This document shows, piece by piece, positions 3,293-49,335 of a DNA stretch of 52,116 bases. The notes below the pieces were generated by a model that searched no databases, was not told where the DNA came from, and saw only the letters and a list, made by a program, of their open reading frames with translations. Position 1 is the first letter of the stretch; each line of letters begins with the position of its first letter. The DNA is from Elusimicrobiota bacterium (lineage in GTDB: Bacteria > Elusimicrobiota > Elusimicrobia > Elusimicrobiales > UBA9959): assembly GCA_009773155.1 (NCBI GenBank), contig WOVA01000015.1, forward strand, positions 1 through 52,116, in the 5' to 3' direction. The translations under genes and the position numbers were made by a program.

Positions 3293-3599
3293 GCGGTCCC
3301 AGTCGGAAGCTAACGGACCCCGCCGTCCGCCCACAGGGGCCGGGCGGCGGAGTTCGCGTGCCGGAACCGGGCGGCATTGCCCGCAGTCGGTGCCCGGGCC
3401 GGGCGGCATAGCGCCCGGCACCTGCAGAGCCGGAGGCTCGTTGTTCCGAGTTCTGCGACGGGCCGGAAGCCGTAGTCTTGTCGTCTACAGGAACGCTGAC
3501 TCTGTACATCGCGAACAGGAAGATAGCAGGTTGAGCCGCAGCCCGGGGGCCTACAGGCCTTCCGGAGCGCTCTTTTTTCATCCGCGGAACGAGGTGACC
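3293..3599 (+). other. rplL-rpoB spacer, 307 bp
   Basis: No gene is supported here. It holds a GC-rich hairpin with arms around 3320-3329 and 3341-3350, then a full copy of repeat family A (3371-3466), then a stretch ending GAGCGCTCTTTTTT (3565-3578) that could act as a weak attenuator or pause. The frame of rpoB is open back to 3390, but the strong RBS GAGGTGA just before 3600 and family length point to 3600 as the start. I could not pick out a convincing promoter. Confidence 0.6.
3371..3466 (+). repeat. Repeat family A, copy A1 (intergenic, full length)
   Basis: This 96-bp segment aligns without gaps to 41590-41685 with 86 of 96 identical bases. It can fold into a branched structure: an outer stem CGCAG/CTGCG (3383-3387 with 3453-3457), an inner hairpin with right arm CCGGCACC, then GAGCC-GGA-GGCTC, which competes with GCTCG-loop-CGAG(C). 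It lies between rplL and rpoB in the same orientation as the copy in murI. No transposase or target duplication is visible. Confidence 0.85.
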
Positions 3600-12540: not shown

Positions 12541-12588
12541 ACGGTACTGGGACACCATGCCGCATGGTGTCCCCCGCTGATGCGGGGG
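12541..12588 (+). repeat. Repeat family B, copy B1 (upstream of fusA)
   Basis: The core is a perfect 25-bp palindrome (12549-12573: GGGACACCATGC, C, GCATGGTGTCCC), preceded by CGGTACT and followed by CCCGCTGAT. In this copy the right flank makes a second perfect 7-bp hairpin, CCCCCGC-TGAT-GCGGGGG (12571-12588). No U-run follows, so a terminator is unlikely. The fusA ribosome-binding site begins about 14 nt later. Same orientation as B3. Confidence 0.85.
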
Positions 12589-19460: not shown

Positions 19461-19493
19461 GACTGTGGGGACACCATGCTGCATGGTGCCCCC
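19461..19493 (+). repeat. Repeat family B, copy B2 (between rpsS and rplV, degenerate)
   Basis: GACTGTGGGGACACCATGC-T-GCATGGTG-CCCCC retains the palindrome core with a lost T in the right arm and a changed left flank. It starts 2 bp after the rpsS stop, and the rplV ribosome-binding site (CGGAG) begins directly after it, so the hairpin may affect rplV translation or mRNA stability. Confidence 0.8.
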
Positions 19494-29270: not shown

Positions 29271-29828
29271 ATGAACGATAATCCCAACCGCAAGGAAGAA
29301 GAGAGCCCCGCGCCGGCGGCCGGCGCCCCCAAGCCGGCCCCGGCCGGTCGCAGTGCTTCCGGCACCGACAGCGGACAAAGCCGCCCTGTTCCGGCCGGTC
29401 GCAGTGCTTCCGGCACCGACAGCGGACAAAGCCGCCCTGTTCCGGCCGGCAAACCCCAGGCCAGGCGCCGCACCGGCGGCCCGGTTACCTTCGGCAGGGT
29501 CTACATAACCTGCTCCTTCAATAACACGATCATCACGATCACCGACGAGAAAGGCGGGGCCATTTCCTGGTCCACCGCCGGCTCGAACGGCTTCCGCGGC
29601 ACCAAGAAGGGTACTCCCTTCGCCGCCCAGATAACCGCCTCAAAGGCCGCCGCCAAGGCGGTCGAGTACGGCATGCGCCAGGCGATGGTCTTCGTCAGCG
29701 GCCCCGGCCCCGGGCGCGAGACCGCGGTGCGCGCCGTCGCGGCTTCCGGCATCCACGTCGTCTCCATCAAGGACGTCACGCCGATACCGCACAACGGCTG
29801 CAGGCCCCCGAAGGCCCGCCGCGTCTAG
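29271..29828 (+). CDS. rpsK: Small ribosomal subunit protein S11 with in-frame repeat insertion
   Basis: S11 forms the 30S platform near the Shine-Dalgarno duplex. The conserved core starts around residue 69 ([19 protein letters not shown]) and includes [18 protein letters not shown] and the C-terminal [18 protein letters not shown]. The protein is 185 residues, about 55 more than usual. The N-terminal extension has two perfect copies of a 17-residue unit (residues 24-40 and 41-57), encoded by an exact 51-bp tandem repeat derived from family A. RBS AGGAGG lies near 29256-29261. The start looks sound, so the tail is likely translated unless removed later. Confidence 0.93.
29340..29441 (-). repeat. 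Two tandem 51-bp copies of a shortened family A element inside rpsK
   Basis: Units 29340-29390 and 29391-29441 are identical (51/51); a partial third start (CCGGCCGG) follows. Read on the minus strand, each unit carries TTGTCCGCTGTCGGTGCCGG joined directly to AGCACTGCGACCGGCC, which are the two ends of the family A copy in murI (20/21 and 16/16 matches), with the internal hairpins (about 53 bp) deleted. The length is a multiple of three, so rpsK stays in frame. Confidence 0.85.
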
Positions 29829-32941: not shown

Positions 32942-33013
32942 AGCGGTACTGGGACACCATGCCGCATGGTGTCCCCCGCTGATACACCGTGCCGCATAGT
33001 GTCCCCCGCTGAT
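32942..33013 (+). repeat. Repeat family B, copy B3 with partial tandem copy
   Basis: The first unit (32942-32983) is nearly identical to B1: AGCGGTACT, then the perfect 25-bp palindrome (32951-32975), then CCGCTGAT. A second, 5'-truncated unit (32984-33013) repeats ACACC-TGCCGCAT-GTGTCCCCCGCTGAT with two changes. The frame through both is open into mreC, giving in-frame ATG at 32966, but mreC has its own strong RBS later. Confidence 0.85.
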
Positions 33014-38340: not shown

Positions 38341-38346
38341 GGCGCC

Positions 38347-38384
38347 ATCGGCGGGGGACACCATGCGGCATGGCGTCCCGGTAC
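38347..38384 (-). repeat. Repeat family B, copy B4 (upstream of rng, reverse orientation)
   Basis: On the minus strand it reads GTACC-GGGACGCCATGCC, then GCATGGTGTCCC, then CCGCCGAT, with one arm mismatch (GCG for GTG). The palindrome is 38355-38379. It begins 6 bp after the DUF2344 stop and ends 34 bp before the rng start. Confidence 0.85.
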
Positions 38385-38418: not shown

Positions 38419-39870
38419 ATGGCAAACGAGAAAAAGATCAGGAAAGAAATCTTCGCGAACACCTCTTTCGAGGAGACGCGTATAGCGATAGTCGAGGACG
38501 GCCGTATGGCCGAGCTGTTCTGGAAGCGCCAGTCGAGCAGCAATATAGTCGGCAATATCTACAAGGGAGTGGTGGAGAACGTGCTGCCCGGCATCTCGAG
38601 CGCGTTCATAAACATAGGCCTGGACAAGAACGCCTACATCTACATTTCCGACGTGCTGGGCAGCCAGCGCGACCCGATAGAGAAACTGCTCAAGAAGGAC
38701 CAGGAAGTGCTGCTGCAGGTCACCAAGGACGCGATAAGTACCAAGGGCATGAAGGTGACCATGGACGTGTCGCTGCCCGGGCGCTACCTGGTCTTCACTC
38801 CGTTCCAGGAATTCATCGGGGTCTCCAAGAACATCGAGGAAGCCGACGAGCGCAAGCGCCTCTCCGACATCATCAAGAAGATCACGACCGACGCCGATAT
38901 GGGCAAGAAGGGCTGTATCGTGCGCACCGAGGCCGAGGGCGCGTCCGAGGAGGAACTCGAGCGTGAACTTAAATTCCTCATACGGCTCTGGGAGTCCATA
39001 ATCGGAAGCTTCGAGACGGCGCGTCCGCCCGCGCTGCTGCACAGGGACATGGACCTGCCGATGCAGGTGGCGCGGGACATACTTTCCGAGGACACCGCCA
39101 TCTACATGCTCGACAATAAGGACGATTTCAGCAGCGTGCAGGATTTCGTGGCCAAGATGTCCCCGGACCTGAAGGACCGGGTGAAGCTCTACGAGGGCAA
39201 GACCCCTCTCTTCAAGGCCTTCAATCTGGAGAAAGGCCTGGAGGAACTGCGCAAGATAAAGGTTGAGCTGCCCAACGGGGGCAGTATCATCATACAGGAG
39301 GCCGAGTCGCTCTGCGCCATCGACGTCAACACCGGCCGCTTCACCGGCAGCCGCTCGCAGGAGGAGACGGTCACCCTCAACAACGTAGAGGCCGCGCAGG
39401 AGATAGCCAGGCAGCTGCGGCTGCGAAATATCGGCGGCATCATCGTCATCGACTTCATAGACATGAAGAAGGCCTCCAACAGGCAGAAGGTGGTCACCGC
39501 TCTCGAGAGCGCCGTGAAGAACGACCGCGCCAAGATACGCATACTGCCAATCACGCGGCTCGGCCTGGTCGAGATGACCCGCGAGCGCAAGCGGGAGAGC
39601 ACGCTCAGCCTGCTGACCGAGGAATGCCCCGAATGTCATGGCTCCGGCCGGGTGCTCTCCAGCGAGACCATCAGGATAAAGATACAGCGCGAGATACGCG
39701 ACCTGACACTGGGCCGCCCCGGCGGCGCCCTGCGCGTGATACTCAATCCGATGCTGGCGGACCTGATACGCCGCAAGCACGAGCTCATGGAGAAGAACGT
39801 GCAGCGCTCGTTCAAGATAGCCTCCGACCCCCAGCTTACCTGGGAAGATTACAGGATAGTGCTGGAGTGA
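38419..39870 (+). CDS. rng: Ribonuclease G (RNase E/G family)
   Basis: This endonuclease cleaves single-stranded AU-rich RNA, with roles in 16S 5' maturation and mRNA decay. The 483-residue protein has an S1 domain (about residues 38-120, with GNIYKGVVENVLPGISSAFINIG), the catalytic Mg2+ aspartates in AIDVNTGRFTG (about 302) and VIDFIDMK (about 345), and the zinc-link motif CPECHGSGRV (about 404). It lacks the long C-terminal scaffold of RNase E. RBS AGGAGGATATTTAAGG is rather far from ATG. Confidence 0.94.
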   Translation: MANEKKIRKEIFANTSFEETRIAIVEDGRMAELFWKRQSSSNIVGNIYKGVVENVLPGISSAFINIGLDKNAYIYISDVLGSQRDPIEKLLKKDQEVLLQVTKDAISTKGMKVTMDVSLPGRYLVFTPFQEFIGVSKNIEEADERKRLSDIIKKITTDADMGKKGCIVRTEAEGASEEELERELKFLIRLWESIIGSFETARPPALLHRDMDLPMQVARDILSEDTAIYMLDNKDDFSSVQDFVAKMSPDLKDRVKLYEGKTPLFKAFNLEKGLEELRKIKVELPNGGSIIIQEAESLCAIDVNTGRFTGSRSQEETVTLNNVEAAQEIARQLRLRNIGGIIVIDFIDMKKASNRQKVVTALESAVKNDRAKIRILPITRLGLVEMTRERKRESTLSLLTEECPECHGSGRVLSSETIRIKIQREIRDLTLGRPGGALRVILNPMLADLIRRKHELMEKNVQRSFKIASDPQLTWEDYRIVLE

Positions 39871-41561: not shown

Positions 41562-42485
41562 ATGAAGAGGAACGAGCGTCCGGAAAAAGGCGACATTGTC
41601 CGCAGTCGGTGCCGGGGCCGGGCGACACAGCGCCCGGCACCTGCGGAGCCGGAGGCTCGTTGTTCCGAGCACTGCGACCGGCCGATAGGCGTGTTCGACT
41701 CGGGGCTGGGCGGCCTGACCGTGCTGGCCGCCATGCGCCGCGCGCTGCCCCGCGAGAATTTCATATATTTCGGCGACACGGCCAGGGTCCCCTACGGCAC
41801 CAAGTCGCCCGAGGCTGTGACCAGGTTCTCGTCGGAAATAACGGCCTGGCTCGTCGCCAAAGGGATAAAGACCCTGGTCGTCGCCTGCAATACCGCCTCG
41901 TCGGTCGCTCTCGACGCGGTGCGGGCGGCGGCGGCCGGCGTGCCCGTTACCGGAGTGATAGAGCCCGGCGCCGCCGCTTTCGCCGCCTCCGGCGGCAGGA
42001 AAGTCCTCGTTATCGGCACCGCCGCGACGGTCGCCAGCCGCGCTTACGGCCGGGCGCTGCGCCGCGCCGCGCCGGGGGCGCTGGTCACCGAGCAGGCCTG
42101 TCCGCTCTTCGTCCCCCTGGTGGAAGAGGGCTGGAGCGACCCCGCGCGCGGCCGCAGGGCCGCCGCGCTGACCAGGCTGGCCGCCGAAGAATACCTGTCG
42201 CCTTACCGCGGTAAGGGCTACGATTCGCTGATACTCGGCTGTACCCACTACCCGCTCCTAAGGAACGTAATCGCGCGGGTCATGGGCCGCAAAATTAATA
42301 TAATTGACTCTGCGGAAGCTGCCGCTCTCTCGGTACGGGAGACGCTGGCCCGGGAGGGCCTGCTGCGCCGCACCGGCCGGGGATCGGTGAGTTTCTTCGT
42401 CAGCGACGCCCCGGAGCGGTTTTCGGCTCTCGCGGCCGCCCTGCTCGGAATAAAACCCGGCAAGGTCGGCGTGAAGAGGCTCTAG
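41562..42485 (+). CDS. murI: Glutamate racemase with in-frame N-terminal repeat
   Basis: MurI makes D-glutamate for peptidoglycan. The family normally begins within a few residues of RPIGVFDSGLGGLTVL; here that motif starts at residue 40. Residues 10-41 are encoded by a 96-bp family A repeat, giving a 307-residue protein. Catalytic cysteines are C109 (ACNTASS) and C227 (LGCTHYPLL), both intact. The ATG at 41562 has a GGCGGAGA RBS, and there is no in-frame ATG or TTG between it and the motif; a GTG at 41692 would remove RPIG, so translation through the repeat is likely. Confidence 0.92.
   Translation: MKRNERPEKGDIVRSRCRGRATQRPAPAEPEARCSEHCDRPIGVFDSGLGGLTVLAAMRRALPRENFIYFGDTARVPYGTKSPEAVTRFSSEITAWLVAKGIKTLVVACNTASSVALDAVRAAAAGVPVTGVIEPGAAAFAASGGRKVLVIGTAATVASRAYGRALRRAAPGALVTEQACPLFVPLVEEGWSDPARGRRAAALTRLAAEEYLSPYRGKGYDSLILGCTHYPLLRNVIARVMGRKINIIDSAEAAALSVRETLAREGLLRRTGRGSVSFFVSDAPERFSALAAALLGIKPGKVGVKRL
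41590..41685 (+). repeat. Repeat family A, copy A2 (in frame inside murI)
   Basis: Gapless match to 3371-3466 (86/96). Predicted pairing: outer stem CGCAGT/ACTGCG (41601-41606 with 41671-41676), inner GGTGCCGG/CCGGCACC (41608-41615 with 41634-41641), then GAGCC-GGA-GGCTC (41646-41658), which can alternate with GCTCG-loop-CGAGC (41655-41670). Ninety-six bp is divisible by three, so the racemase frame is kept. It encodes residues 10-41 of MurI. Confidence 0.88.
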
Positions 42486-43502: not shown

Positions 43503-44166
43503 ACGAAAGGTCGCCTATGAGCCCGGCGAGGCCCGGGCCTGGCGGGGCCGTGCCGTTGTCATCGACCTCTTCCGTTTTTCGAACACGGTCTGCGCTCTTC
43601 TCGAGAGCGGGCGCCGCGATGTGAGGGTCTACGCCGACCCGTCGCTGGCCGTGGCCGCCGCGCGCGCCTCGAAGGCCGACCTCTTCTCGGAGATGGACCT
43701 TCCCGGCGTGGAGAAATACGACAATTCGCCCGTGACCGCACTCTCCGGCTCCGACCCTGCGAAGGCGGCCGTGATAGTGACCAATTCCGGTTCCAAGGCC
43801 GTCATGGCCTGCCCGTCGGCGGCGGAGATACTCATCGGCTGCTTCGCCAACGCCGCCGCCCTGAGCGCTCACTGCGCGGCTTCGCCCATGAGCACCCTTT
43901 TCGTTCCCGCGTGCCTGTATTACGACAGGGCCCACGCGGAGGATTTTTCCTGCGCCCGTTTCCTGGCCGGCGAGATGTCGTACGGCGACGCAGTCGCCGA
44001 GATACATTCCAGCGGCCGCCCGCTGGACTTCCTGGCGGGCCGGCCGGGCGGAAGGCGGGACCTGGAAATGTCTCTTTCAAAGGACCTTTTCACGGGAGTG
44101 CCGTCCGCCAGCCATCGCGGGATATTCGCGCCGGTATTTCCCGCCGCGGCCGGGGGGGAGAAGTGA
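43462..44166 (+). CDS. ComB-like 2-phosphosulfolactate phosphatase family protein
   Basis: The 234-residue protein matches the ComB fold: GRAVVIDLFRFSNTVCALLESG near the start, YDNSPVTAL (family GNSP), VIVTNSGSKAVMAC (family TTTNGT) and EILIGCFANAAAL. ComB acts in coenzyme M synthesis in methanogens, but many bacteria without coenzyme M encode homologues of unknown substrate. The start at 43462 overlaps the lipoprotein gene by 41 bp and has no good RBS; other starts are not evident. It overlaps queC by 4 bp, suggesting a shared unit with queC-queE. Confidence 0.75.
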   Translation: MQRTFPRERGAVPERKVAYEPGEARAWRGRAVVIDLFRFSNTVCALLESGRRDVRVYADPSLAVAAARASKADLFSEMDLPGVEKYDNSPVTALSGSDPAKAAVIVTNSGSKAVMACPSAAEILIGCFANAAALSAHCAASPMSTLFVPACLYYDRAHAEDFSCARFLAGEMSYGDAVAEIHSSGRPLDFLAGRPGGRRDLEMSLSKDLFTGVPSASHRGIFAPVFPAAAGGEK

Positions 44167-44843
44167 AGCGCCCGGAGGCCGTGGTCCTTTTTTCAGGCGG
44201 GCTCGATTCGACCGTCGCGTTATGCTGGGCTCTTTCGGAAGGCTATGTCTGCAGCGCCGTTTCTTTCGCCTACGGACAGCGCCACGCCCGCGAGAACCGC
44301 AGCGCCAGGGTCATAGCCCGCCGCCTCGGCGTCAGACTTTACGACATAAAGCTGGACTTCCCGTGGTTCGGCACCAGTTCACTGGTCGGCGGGCGCGGCC
44401 GGCTGCCGGAGCAGAAGTCGTCGGCGATAGGACGCCCCGGCGACATTCCGTCCACCTATGTGCCGGGCCGCAACCTCGTTTTCACTTCCGCCGGCATCTC
44501 GCTCGCCGACGCCAGAGGCGCGCGCGCCGTCGTGCTGGGCCCCAACGCGGTGGACTATTCCGGCTATCCGGACTGCCGGCCCGCCTTCTACCGCGCGCTT
44601 GAGAGGGCCGCCGCTTTCGGCACCCGGCAGGGCGACAGGGGGGAGAGGATAAAGCTGCTTACTCCTCTCATAAAGCTCAGCAAGGCCGGCATAGTCCGGC
44701 TGGGGAGAAAGCTGAAGGCCCCGCTGGAACTGACCTGGTCCTGCTACGCCGGAGGCCGGCGTCCCTGCGGCCGCTGCGATTCCTGCAAGCTGCGCGCCAG
44801 GGGCTTTGCCGCCGCCGGCGTCGCCGACCCCGCGCTGAAATGA
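44163..44843 (+). CDS. queC: 7-cyano-7-deazaguanine synthase
   Basis: QueC converts 7-carboxy-7-deazaguanine to preQ0 with ATP and ammonia, in queuosine synthesis. The 226-residue protein starts with GTG inside the comB stop, after RBS GGGGGAG. It has the PP-loop SGGLDST (residues 11-17), PGRNLVFTSAGISLAD, GPNAVDYSGYPDCRPAFY and the C-terminal zinc site CYAGGRRPCGRCDSC. queE follows with a 4-bp overlap. Confidence 0.94.
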   Translation: MKRPEAVVLFSGGLDSTVALCWALSEGYVCSAVSFAYGQRHARENRSARVIARRLGVRLYDIKLDFPWFGTSSLVGGRGRLPEQKSSAIGRPGDIPSTYVPGRNLVFTSAGISLADARGARAVVLGPNAVDYSGYPDCRPAFYRALERAAAFGTRQGDRGERIKLLTPLIKLSKAGIVRLGRKLKAPLELTWSCYAGGRRPCGRCDSCKLRARGFAAAGVADPALK

Positions 44844-45559
44844 AAACCGCGGCCGCTCCCGTACACGAGATCTTCTGTTCCCGGCAGGGCGAGGGCCTGT
44901 ACTGCGGCCGGCGTCAGGTTTTCCTCCGTTTCGCCGGCTGCAACCTGGACTGCTCGTACTGCGACGAGCCCGCGGCCCGCTCTCTCCCGTCTTTCATGAT
45001 GACGCCGGCCGAAGCCGCCGCCGAGGTCATAAGGCAGGCGCGCCGCGGCCGCGCCAGGATGGTCTCTCTGACCGGCGGCGAGCCGCTGCTGCGCTGGCGG
45101 TTCATAAAGGCGCTGGCTCCGGCGCTGCGGAGGGCCGGCCTGGCCCTGCACCTGGAGACCAACGGCACGCTGTACCGCGAGCTTGGCGAAGTCATCGGAC
45201 TGGTGGACGCGGTGGCGATGGACGTAAAGATCCCTTCCTCCGGCGGACACCGGCCGCTCTGGTCCGCCCACCGCCGGTTCCTGTCCGTCGCGCCGGGCAA
45301 GACTTTCATAAAAGCCGTCCTGACCTCCTCGTCGTCCATGTCAGACCTGCGGCGCGCCGCGGACCTGGCCGCAGCCGCGGGACGCGATATCCCTTTCTTC
45401 ATACAGCCGGCATCGGCGGGGGACACCATGCGGCATGGTGTCCCAGTACCGCTTCCGCCGTCGGCCCGACAGGTCCGCGAGGCGGAGTCCTACGCGAAGA
45501 GCCGGCTTGAAAGAGTGAAGGTCCTCCCGCAACAGCACCCGCTGTGGGGAGTGAAGTAG
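44840..45559 (+). CDS. queE: 7-carboxy-7-deazaguanine synthase with in-frame repeat
   Basis: QueE is a radical SAM enzyme making 7-carboxy-7-deazaguanine. The 239-residue protein has the cluster motif CNLDCSYC (C34, C38 and C41), SRQGEGLYCGRRQVFLRFAG before it, SLTGGEPLLR (about 76-85) and the C-terminal VKVLPQQHPLWGVK. Residues 191-205 ([15 protein letters not shown]) come from a family B repeat placed between FFIQP and PPSARQVREAE, a surface segment near the C-terminus. The frame is intact. queD, queF and folE are not in the window. Confidence 0.93.
   Translation: MKTAAAPVHEIFCSRQGEGLYCGRRQVFLRFAGCNLDCSYCDEPAARSLPSFMMTPAEAAAEVIRQARRGRARMVSLTGGEPLLRWRFIKALAPALRRAGLALHLETNGTLYRELGEVIGLVDAVAMDVKIPSSGGHRPLWSAHRRFLSVAPGKTFIKAVLTSSSSMSDLRRAADLAAAAGRDIPFFIQPASAGDTMRHGVPVPLPPSARQVREAESYAKSRLERVKVLPQQHPLWGVK
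45412..45452 (-). repeat. Repeat family B, copy B5 (in frame inside queE)
   Basis: On the minus strand it reads GCGGTACT, then the perfect palindrome GGGACACCATGC-C-GCATGGTGTCCC (45420-45444), then CCGCCGAT, nearly identical to B1 and B3. It lies wholly within queE codons 191-205 and adds about 14-15 residues without breaking the frame. Confidence 0.88.
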
Positions 45560-45987: not shown

Positions 45988-47643
45988 ATGGTAAAAAACA
46001 CCTCACTCCTTTTCAAGGCTTTCGTCATGGCCATCTTCCCCGCAGCCGTTTTCGCCCAGGGCGATTATGATTCCCGCCTTGGCGAACTCCAGTCCGGGAT
46101 GGAGCGCACCGCCGAGGCCCTCGGCGTGCCTCTGCACGAGGACTGGGCCGCGGATCTCTCCGGGCGCTTCGACGGCTCACTTTCGGGAGATCAGTCGGCC
46201 GCTCTTCAGCTGACCCCTCTGCGCGCCCCGGCTTCCTTGCCCCGGGTGCCTTCGCTGCCGGTCATACCACCGCTCCCCGCCGATTACCCGCTTCCCGAAC
46301 CCGTCTCCTATACCGGCACCGCCGTCATCGTCTGGCACGCACTGGGCGCCCAGCTCTCCGACAACGGCTGGATACCGTGGGCCGATTCGGCTCCGACCTT
46401 CGACGAGATCTCCAAGCGGGTCCTCGATGTTTCCGTTTCCAGGGCCTATCCCGCCCGCCGCGCCGGCCAGCAGTCCCTTTTCAGGGACGCCGGCTTCCTG
46501 GCCGAGTACGAGCGCGCCACGAAAGCGCCCTTCCGCGACGGCAACAGCGCCCGCTACCTGGTCGACGGCCCCGCCTCTTTCGCGGTGCGCGACCGCCTGA
46601 TGCGCGAGGCCAAAAAGAGCCTGCTGGTATCGAGCTGGGCCTTCTACGACGATATAACCGGCTGGGAGGCCGCCCAGTACCTCATCCTGAAAAAGCGCGA
46701 GGGCCTGGAAGTGAAGGTCATCGTGGACAAGAAGGTGGCGGTCGGCCACGGCCGGCGCGTGCTTAAGTTGATGGAGCAGGCCGGCATAGAGGTCCTGCGC
46801 TACGAAGAGAAGGACCGCGGCAACGATATCTGGCACGTCAAGATGATGATAGTCGACGACGCCTACGCCATAGTCGGCGGCCTTAATTTCGGCGACGTCT
46901 ACTCCCACAAGGACCCCAATAACGTCAAATGGCGCGACACCGACGTGCTCTACTCCGGTCCCGCCGTGGCCGAGAGCCGCCGCCTCTTCGCCCGCCTCTG
47001 GAATTCCAAGGTCCGCGAATTGAAGCTCAAGTTCTCTCCCGTAGCCGAGACCGCGCCGGCCGGCGCCTACGAGGGCGGCTCCGCTAAAGTGAGCGTGATA
47101 CTGCAGGACCCCCCGACCGATTCCAATGTTCTGGTCAGCATAGTAAAGGCCATGTACGGCGCCACCGGGCGCATCAATATAGAGAACGCCTATTTCGTCG
47201 CCCTGCCGGTGGTCACTAAGGCCGTCCTGGACGCGGTCTCCCGCGGGGTGGAGGTCAATATCATCACCAACTCCAAGGAGAGCATCGACCCCGAGGGCAA
47301 GGTCATAGTGGAGGCCATGTACGAGTGCCTGATGCCGCTGGCCGCGGCCGGCGCCAACATCTATCTTTACCAGGGTTCGGCCACGCTGCATTCCAAGTTC
47401 ATGACCGTGGACGGGGTGTTCGCCAATATCGGCTCCTATAACCTGCACCCGCGCGGCGAGCGCTACGACACGGAGGTCAATGTGAGCATAATCGACCCCG
47501 TCTCCACCGCCGAACTGGACGCGGCTTTCGCCGCCGACGTGGCCATGTCCCGCAGGGTCACCTCCCCCGACCAGTTGGGGGAGCGGCCGGGCTGGCTTTC
47601 GAGCTTCGTTTCCGAGTACTTCTACGCGCAGTTGAAGAAATAA
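45988..47643 (+). CDS. Secreted phospholipase D-like protein 1
   Basis: The 551-residue protein has a Sec signal peptide (about residues 1-23, ending VFAQ) and two HKD catalytic motifs: HVKMMIVD from H283 and HSKFMTVD from H468, each followed by the GGLNFGD or GSYNLHP stretch typical of the cardiolipin-synthase-like PLD branch. It should act in the periplasm or outside, on phospholipids or another phosphodiester. The second PLD gene downstream is a paralogue sharing both motifs and much of the sequence. Its own leaderless-type promoter follows the terminator. Confidence 0.88.
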   Translation: MVKNTSLLFKAFVMAIFPAAVFAQGDYDSRLGELQSGMERTAEALGVPLHEDWAADLSGRFDGSLSGDQSAALQLTPLRAPASLPRVPSLPVIPPLPADYPLPEPVSYTGTAVIVWHALGAQLSDNGWIPWADSAPTFDEISKRVLDVSVSRAYPARRAGQQSLFRDAGFLAEYERATKAPFRDGNSARYLVDGPASFAVRDRLMREAKKSLLVSSWAFYDDITGWEAAQYLILKKREGLEVKVIVDKKVAVGHGRRVLKLMEQAGIEVLRYEEKDRGNDIWHVKMMIVDDAYAIVGGLNFGDVYSHKDPNNVKWRDTDVLYSGPAVAESRRLFARLWNSKVRELKLKFSPVAETAPAGAYEGGSAKVSVILQDPPTDSNVLVSIVKAMYGATGRINIENAYFVALPVVTKAVLDAVSRGVEVNIITNSKESIDPEGKVIVEAMYECLMPLAAAGANIYLYQGSATLHSKFMTVDGVFANIGSYNLHPRGERYDTEVNVSIIDPVSTAELDAAFAADVAMSRRVTSPDQLGERPGWLSSFVSEYFYAQLKK

Positions 47644-47647
47644 GTCC

Positions 47648-47706
47648 GGGGACATTGTTTAGTTGTTTAGTTTTTCAGCAAAACTAAACAACTAAACAAC
47701 GTCCCC
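47648..47706 (+). repeat. AT-rich 59-bp inverted repeat between the PLD genes
   Basis: Arms 47648-47674 and 47680-47706 are 27 bp each with one mismatch and a 5-nt loop (TCAGC). The outer ends are GGGGAC/GTCCCC and the interior repeats TTGTTTAG twice. Composition is sharply AT-rich against the surroundings. It starts 4 bp after the PLD stop. No U-run follows, so it is not a simple terminator. It resembles the REP-like hairpins moved by Y1 (RAYT) transposases, but no transposase is here. Confidence 0.85.
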
Positions 47707-47796: not shown

Positions 47797-49335
47797 ATGA
47801 TCAAAAAGACCATCGCCCTTGCCTTGGCCTCCGTTATAATCCCTTCCATATCGAGCGCCGGCTCCGCCGACCTCGACTCCTTGATGGCCCAGATCGAGGC
47901 CTCCGGCCTGGCGGCCGGCCAGCAGATAGATATGCCCTCCGATATGCCGCAGGCCAAGGCCGGCCTGGGCGGCGGCACTATAGGCGAGCAGGCCGGCGTG
48001 GTCTGGGGTTACGGCGTGACCATCTACCACGCTATAGCCGGACAGATAACCGACAGCGGCGTCCTGCCCTGGACCGCGGCGGCCCCCGATTTCGAAGAGA
48101 TCTCCCGGAGCGTCCTGCTCAAAGCCGCCGAGACCCGGTATATGCCCCGCAAGGGCGGCGCCCCTTCCCTGCTGGAAGACGAGGGCTTCATCCGCGAGCT
48201 GGAGCAGGCCTCCGGCGCCCGCTTCACCTCCGGCAACGACACCGATTACCTGATAGACGGCCCCGAGGCGTTCGCGGCCAAGGACGCGCTCATCATGGGA
48301 GCGCGCGAGAACCTTTTCGTGGCCAGCTGGGCCTTCTACGACGACGAGACCGGCTACGCGGCTGCCGACCTGCTGATCGCGGCCAAACGCCGCGGCGTGG
48401 ACGTGCGCGTCATGGTGGACGGCAAGGTCGCCCGCAGTCACGGCCCCCGCGCGCTCAAGCGGATGGAGCGCGCCGGCGTGGAGGTCCTGCACTACCAGGA
48501 GATCGGCCGCCGGCACGATATCTGGCATGTCAAGACCAGCATAGCCGACTGGACCACCGCCATCACCGGCGGCATGAACTTCGGCGACGTCTATTCGCAC
48601 CGCGGCGACGGTGCCAAGTGGCGCGACACCGACGTGCGCTACTCCGGCCCCGCGGCCTACGATACGGCGCTTATCTTCCGCAGCGAGTGGAACTCGCAGG
48701 TCTCCGCCCGCCCCAGCTCCGGCCTGACCCGCATCCCCGCGCCGACGGCGCGCCCGGGTTCCTACGGCTCCGCCCGCATAGCGCCGGTGCTGCAGAACCC
48801 CCCGACCGACTCCAAGATACTGCTGAGCATGATAAAGGCGATGTACGGCGCCTCCCGCGAGATCAACGTGGAGAACGCCTACTTCGTCGCCCTGCCGGCC
48901 GTGACCCGGGCCCTGATCGACGCCCTGCACCGCGGCGTGAAAGTGAACGTGCTGACCAACTCGCCCGACAGCCTCAACGGCCAGTGCAAATCGATGGGCG
49001 TGCCGCTGCTCAAGAGTCTGGTGGCCCTCAAGGCCGAGGGCGCCGGCGTTTATCTCAAGCAGGGCGACACGCTGCACTCCAAGTTCATGACCGCGGACGG
49101 GGTGTTCGCCAATATCGGCTCCTATAACCTGCACCCGCGCGGCGAGCGCTACGATACCGAGCTTAATGTCAACGTGCTGGGCCGCGAGGGCGTGGCCGAG
49201 CTGGACCGCGCCTTCCTGGACGACATAGCCGCCGCCAAACGCATCGACCGCGTCGAGGACCTCAATATCCAGGAGACCTGGCTGTCCAGGTTCATCGAGG
49301 AATATTTCATGGCGCAGCTCGCGCGGAAGAAATAA
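47797..49335 (+). CDS. Secreted phospholipase D-like protein 2
   Basis: This 512-residue paralogue of the preceding PLD protein has a Sec signal peptide (about residues 1-23) and HKD motifs HVKTSIAD from H244 and HSKFMTAD from H427, with GGMNFGD and GSYNLHPRGERYDTE following. A segment ENAYFVALPAVTRALIDAL and the preceding LQNPPTDSKILLS are shared with its neighbour almost word for word. The two genes probably arose by tandem duplication including the promoter. Substrate unknown. A terminator follows. Confidence 0.88.
   Translation: MIKKTIALALASVIIPSISSAGSADLDSLMAQIEASGLAAGQQIDMPSDMPQAKAGLGGGTIGEQAGVVWGYGVTIYHAIAGQITDSGVLPWTAAAPDFEEISRSVLLKAAETRYMPRKGGAPSLLEDEGFIRELEQASGARFTSGNDTDYLIDGPEAFAAKDALIMGARENLFVASWAFYDDETGYAAADLLIAAKRRGVDVRVMVDGKVARSHGPRALKRMERAGVEVLHYQEIGRRHDIWHVKTSIADWTTAITGGMNFGDVYSHRGDGAKWRDTDVRYSGPAAYDTALIFRSEWNSQVSARPSSGLTRIPAPTARPGSYGSARIAPVLQNPPTDSKILLSMIKAMYGASREINVENAYFVALPAVTRALIDALHRGVKVNVLTNSPDSLNGQCKSMGVPLLKSLVALKAEGAGVYLKQGDTLHSKFMTADGVFANIGSYNLHPRGERYDTELNVNVLGREGVAELDRAFLDDIAAAKRIDRVEDLNIQETWLSRFIEEYFMAQLARKK

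Follow-up and report, generated by a model that had tools for sequence, protein, structure and literature searches.

The window, the whole 52,116-nt stretch of an Elusimicrobiota genome that was analysed, carries queE on its plus strand, directly downstream of a queC-like ORF (44163-44843). The identity of queE follows from a radical SAM domain and from the top PDB match, 5tgs, a 7-carboxy-7-deazaguanine synthase. Inside queE lies one copy of a hairpin repeat, family B, which recurs between other genes of the window:

12542-12581, plus strand: long intergenic copy upstream of fusA, without counterpart in congener G002
19467-19493, plus strand: core-type copy between two ribosomal protein genes
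32944-33013, plus strand: two units in tandem (the second of 30 nt), intergenic, upstream of mreC, missing in G001, G002 and G003
38345-38384, minus strand: long intergenic copy before the ORF at 38419
44840-45559, plus strand: queE (7-carboxy-7-deazaguanine synthase), the host ORF, with PF04055 and a PDB match
45410-45449, minus strand: hairpin repeat copy in queE, conserved unit of ~40 bp
45420-45444, no strand assigned: palindromic core of the queE copy, 12-bp arms and one central base
47648-47706, no strand assigned: a different hairpin with ends GGGGACATTGTTTAG...CTAAACAACGTCCCC and 20-bp inner arms

The queE copy is built around the palindrome GGGACACCATGC-G-GCATGGTGTCCC, in which two perfect 12-bp arms enclose one unpaired central base. 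The perfect 25-bp palindrome described in the initial annotation is thus confirmed at 45420-45444, where it is read in frame. The 41-bp element placed at 45412-45452 is also real, but its boundaries shift: column conservation among 71 long copies defines the conserved unit inside queE as 45410-45449. The copy is assigned to the minus strand, which denotes the orientation GTACN-hairpin-CCGCTGATGC, and the plus strand translates in frame with queE as (A)SAGDTMRHGVPVP. All six frames of 45412-45452 are open in this copy; the earlier count of five stop-free frames is correct for the family consensus, CGCTGATG, which has a stop in one frame.

In QueE, the element encodes a segment of 14 residues, located after the invariant QP (189-190) and before the next helix. 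Congeners have seven residues at the same place (TRNKKTR and similar), so that a 7-residue linker has been replaced by 14 and the net gain is seven (232 to 239 aa). An addition of 14-15 residues had been proposed; this describes the length of the segment, not the gain. The segment is missing from all 17-21 QueE orthologues compared (same genus, family and in part order); as it is not common to orthologues, its interpretation as an inserted element stands. In an AlphaFold model of QueE (mean pLDDT 88) the segment is predicted, at lower confidence, to form a loop that leads from strand 186-190 to helix 209-222.

The near-identical intergenic copies reported upstream of fusA (12549) and mreC (32951) were recovered, both in the orientation opposite to that of the queE copy, and three further copies are present at 19468, 32981 and 38355. 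The copy at 38345-38384 is matched in G002 by a perfect one (L232) whose flanks are very similar, and the site is probably the same. At 19467-19493 a related, decayed palindrome is found in G001; the ORF start predicted there, 19483, probably lies too far upstream. The hairpin at 47648-47706 is probably a member of a wider group of GGGGACA hairpins; it separates paralogous ORFs (45988-47643 and 47797-49335) that look phospholipase D-like by eye and share stretches of 71-92% identity. The window also contains a 113-nt repeat, 87% identical between 3361-3473 and 41580-41692 and intergenic or at a gene start, whose second copy adjoins the start of the ORF at 41691 and which is possibly family A of the initial annotation. 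A perfect 51-nt tandem duplication (17 codons) occupies 29340-29441 inside the ORF 29271-29828. The only known RNA families in the window are rRNA.

Across the genome of the window (G000; 2.76 Mb, 93 contigs) the core occurs 130 times with at most two mismatches, ample for a family, and a reversed-pattern control gave no matches, excluding chance. Three congeners hold 9, 11 and 13 copies, and the core is absent from most other Elusimicrobiota genomes searched; the genomes analysed are MAGs. The symmetric form of the element is a 27-bp core, GGGGACACCATGC-N-GCATGGTGTCCCC, and the long form, ~40 bp, adds one-sided flanks, reading GCATCAGCGG-core-NGTAC in the coding orientation. Tandem 30-nt units are found at several loci. 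Variant cores of the type GGGACACCTTGC-N-GCAAGGTGTCCC, with both arms changed, occur in 1-5 copies in genomes G174, G201, G011 and G016, of which G174 and G201 belong to the same class and another family. A phage origin was rejected (no exact core match in IMG/VR contigs and no match to phage records), as was a plasmid origin, for which matches were short and at chance level only.

We located copies with a covariance model and analysed 77 stretches around its matches, which are centred on copies by design. The resulting 129 copies include 118 of the 130 close copies, the other 12 lying outside the fetched stretches. ORFs were called by a simple, purpose-written codon-usage scorer, which gave plausible calls for the window's ribosomal operon. 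Eighty-nine copies are contained entirely within ORFs, another 9 are at ORF ends and the remaining 31 fall between ORFs, bearing out the earlier claim that the family enters coding sequence in frame.

Whether the frames used are biased had been left as a question, and the answer is clear: one frame accounts for 71 of the 89 genic copies. The peptides GDTM(R/P)HGVP, GTPCRMVSP and GHHAAWCP are used in a ratio of 71:12:6 (p ~3e-19); when each gene is counted once, the dominant frame is found in 54 of 69 (p ~3e-14), and it is also used by five of six genic copies in congeners. Long copies are mostly antisense because the dominant frame meets a TGA in the sense orientation. Antisense copies have no stop in any of the three frames, and still these are used 44:2:3. 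The one-frame bias is explained neither by stops nor by flank composition. Absence of stops, proposed initially to ease tolerance within genes, explains the pattern only in part, as the other stop-free frames are seldom used; the nature of the peptide, which has no Trp or Cys, probably matters more.

Alternatively, the bias could be made at insertion and not by selection on the peptide, if a target motif or a translation-coupled mechanism led the insertion machinery to favour one codon phase. The conserved unit does begin exactly on a codon boundary in the dominant frame, and genic copies often have GCC as their left flank. We nevertheless consider a phase preference improbable: projected onto coding sequence, the flank triplets of non-genic copies predict a share of 0.31-0.33 for the dominant phase against 0.80 observed, in a small sample (17 and 21 copies) that leaves room for a longer or structural motif.

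The sense copy L088 (G000 C18:22483) provides the stop of its host ORF, and the protein ends in GDTMPHGVPR. Copies at L065 (C15:19954), L097 (C74:11578), L122 (C16:1029) and L093 (C27:51111) directly follow hydrophobic N-termini; in these, the element-coded ASA before GDTM resembles a signal peptidase site.

To find orthologous regions in congeners, we used concatenated chunks of the host proteins, omitting the element. For all 15 informative genic copies, queE included, at least one congener is empty with both sides aligned. The net gain is mostly 5-11 codons, the element usually replacing a few variable linker codons. Intergenic empty sites were found as well (C27:68155, a clean +36 bp; C41:27848, +37 bp). 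No target duplication was seen at the filled and empty sites compared, and the junctions resemble replacement of 6-21 nt of host DNA, not precise insertion.

In copies read in the dominant frame, 8 synonymous and 34 non-synonymous differences from the consensus were counted. About 20% of the possible single changes in the six codons concerned are synonymous, and the observed share lies close to this value, giving no sign of a conserved peptide. Stem changes are nearly all one-sided (97, against three two-sided), indicating that pairing is not under repair, and G000 shows no compensatory changes in the stem that would signal selection. Later change in the copies thus looks neutral, and the copies drift. 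If change after insertion is neutral, the frame bias is most likely set at the stage where insertions are retained or lost, not afterwards. Some copies are shared with one congener, and their core is changed at 7 of 108 positions, compared with 29% at flanking fourfold sites; these little-changed cores may reflect constraint, conversion or re-insertion.

These data also bear on a reading at the protein level, in which a functional linker or tag spread by recombination between genes and the palindrome is incidental. SAGDTMxHGVPVP recurs in dozens of unrelated proteins, as such a motif would. Most of its changes in the dominant frame are non-synonymous, at a near-neutral share, 18 genic copies are read in other frames, and the same core is intergenic in Poribacteria (see below); the 31 copies between genes largely refute this reading by themselves, and we give it hardly any weight.

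The identical core is abundant in the Candidatus Poribacteria MAG JACRIR01, with 230 copies at up to two mismatches. Among 95 copies in fetched loci, a sample picked by exact core match, 91 are intergenic, three lie at gene ends and one is genic, in sequence that is 81% coding; the genic fraction differs from that in G000 with p = 2e-29. In the Poribacteria hairpins (L201-L271) the outer arms are longer, and the two sides vary in step (CTTATTCG/CGAATAAG, GAAAATCG/CGATTTTC); inner variants with both arms changed also occur (CGATG/CATCG, CTTGC/GCAAG). A composite element with a transposase between close copies was considered for this genome and rejected, as the intervening ORFs look ordinary chromosomal by eye.

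Presence of the same core in another phylum could point to a functional DNA or RNA site, such as a protein-binding palindrome, a chromosome-organising site or an mRNA hairpin, that is kept by selection and tolerated in genes. Perfect palindromes are common among the copies, and the near-unchanged orthologous cores described above are in line with this idea. However, a needed site would not be expected to drop about tenfold in copy number between congeners or to leave empty sites in close relatives, the prevalence of one-sided stem changes argues that pairing is not maintained, and a DNA function predicts no single reading frame. We therefore regard a functional site as unlikely. The opposite placement of the palindrome in the two phyla raises a further possibility, which we put forward tentatively: the hairpin lineage in G000 may have been made protein-compatible, its sequence or landing phase being adapted to yield one benign linker peptide, hence its mainly genic distribution compared with the position outside genes in the other phylum.

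A candidate for the mobilising enzyme is suggested by the ends of the repeat, GGGGACAC in the core consensus, which fit the GGGGWSAS motif of the repeats associated with TIRYT genes. These genes and their motif were named by Di Nocera et al., 2013 (PMC3733652), and most TIRYT are TnpA Y1 of subclass 2.1 (PMC6006769). In G000, three genes score above the PF01797 cut-off. One of them, L031, has inverted GGGGACAGGCTACTTTT on either side. A further one, L033, sits between GGGGACACAATACCTATTTC hairpins, as do its counterparts in G002 and G003, an arrangement seen in three species of the genus. The GGGGACACAATACCTATTTC hairpins make up a small second family, with roughly 15-20 copies. Contigs of G000 with members of this family are C45, C28, C48, C66, C68, C84 and C88; six listed copies are on C45, where the hairpins of L033 occupy 729-779 and 1948-1992. 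No solved relatives of the L033 transposase were found by phmmer. Long inverted repeats that start with GGGGWSA surround the gene at 13 of 40 Y1_Tnp loci (Elusimicrobiota, Acidobacteriota and Poribacteria) and at none of 89 control loci. In G000, its congeners and the Poribacteria genome, no transposase gene with the exact family B stem on its flanks was found; the Y1_Tnp loci there carry other stems (GGGGACAGGCTAC, GGGGACACAATACC, GGGGACATAATACC). The transposase link consequently rests on the shared ends, and we did not file the repeat as a TIRYT-associated member. Judged by its ends, family B probably works like a TIRYT-mobilised repeat.

Together, we favor as fairly likely a model in which family B is a non-autonomous, REP/MITE-like hairpin, probably mobilised by TIRYT, whose surviving genic copies have been filtered to one benign frame. 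A ~40-bp mobile hairpin, made of a 27-bp palindrome with one-sided flanks, would have multiplied recently in this Elusimicrobiota lineage. It would most likely move in the folded state, with an IS200-like HUH/Y1 tyrosine transposase of the TIRYT type acting on it in trans; the inverted repeats of such transposases share the end motif GGGGACA(C) with the element. It would land both between and inside genes, and a genic copy would survive only where the length stays a multiple of three. Survivors would mainly read (AA)SAGDTM(R/P)HGVPVP, a small, flexible peptide free of Trp and Cys that can be accommodated in loops and linkers, and we infer that the other frames are purged by selection on the peptide. 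Two observations sit less easily with this model. Replacement junctions of 6-21 nt are not obviously produced by IS200-type movement, and the small change in shared cores could hint at constraint or conversion.

Among the closest described systems is that of TIRYT/TIRtrons (PMC3733652). It shares with family B the fit of the ends to GGGGWSAS and TIR families that are in some cases self-complementary and repeated in the genome; GGGGACA inverted repeats also accompany Y1_Tnp genes in G000 and in related genomes. In contrast, the described TIR families have not been reported to be mostly intragenic or to use a single frame, and no TIRYT gene flanked by the exact stem was found in the genomes examined here. 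The Rickettsia palindromic elements (RPE; 105-146 bp, Ogata et al., 2000, as reviewed in PMC2229807) are likewise palindromic mobile repeats that occupy many conserved protein genes in frame and occur between genes too (PMC2229807). The element described here is ~40 bp, resides in Elusimicrobiota and strongly prefers one frame, and its sequence is unrelated as far as compared. GTAG/CGTC REPs with RAYT transposases (PMC3733652) resemble it as palindromes of 20-40 bp that reach high copy number, single or in tandem, with some in ORFs; intragenic REPs are known in Opitutus terrae and R. conorii (PMC3733652). Family B has no GTAG or CGTC tag, carrying GTAC beside the hairpin, and is mostly genic in G000 and mainly extragenic only in Poribacteria, whereas these REPs are mostly intergenic. 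PARCELs are also palindromic coding repeats of scattered taxonomic distribution; however, they are tandem 25-residue amphipathic repeats in special ORFs, unlike the dispersed single insertions in housekeeping genes seen here. In-frame palindromes (RPE, PMC2229807) and intragenic REPs (PMC3733652) are thus already known. New, as far as the literature shows, are the host phylum, a majority-genic hairpin of ~40 bp, strong use of a single frame with neutral later change, and the opposite behaviour in another phylum.

In-frame palindromic insertions are best known in Rickettsia, where neutral spread is hard to tell from genome decay. The present family is a large example from a 2.8-Mb genome, in which the frame bias is clear and empty orthologous sites are available; the Poribacteria genome, with the same core in extragenic position, serves as a natural control. 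A route from mobile DNA to protein sequence thereby becomes testable. The findings also suggest that TIRYT-type hairpins are able to spread across phyla. For annotation they carry a warning: where proteins of this genus contain SAGDTMxHGVPVP, the peptide represents mobile DNA, not a conserved motif.
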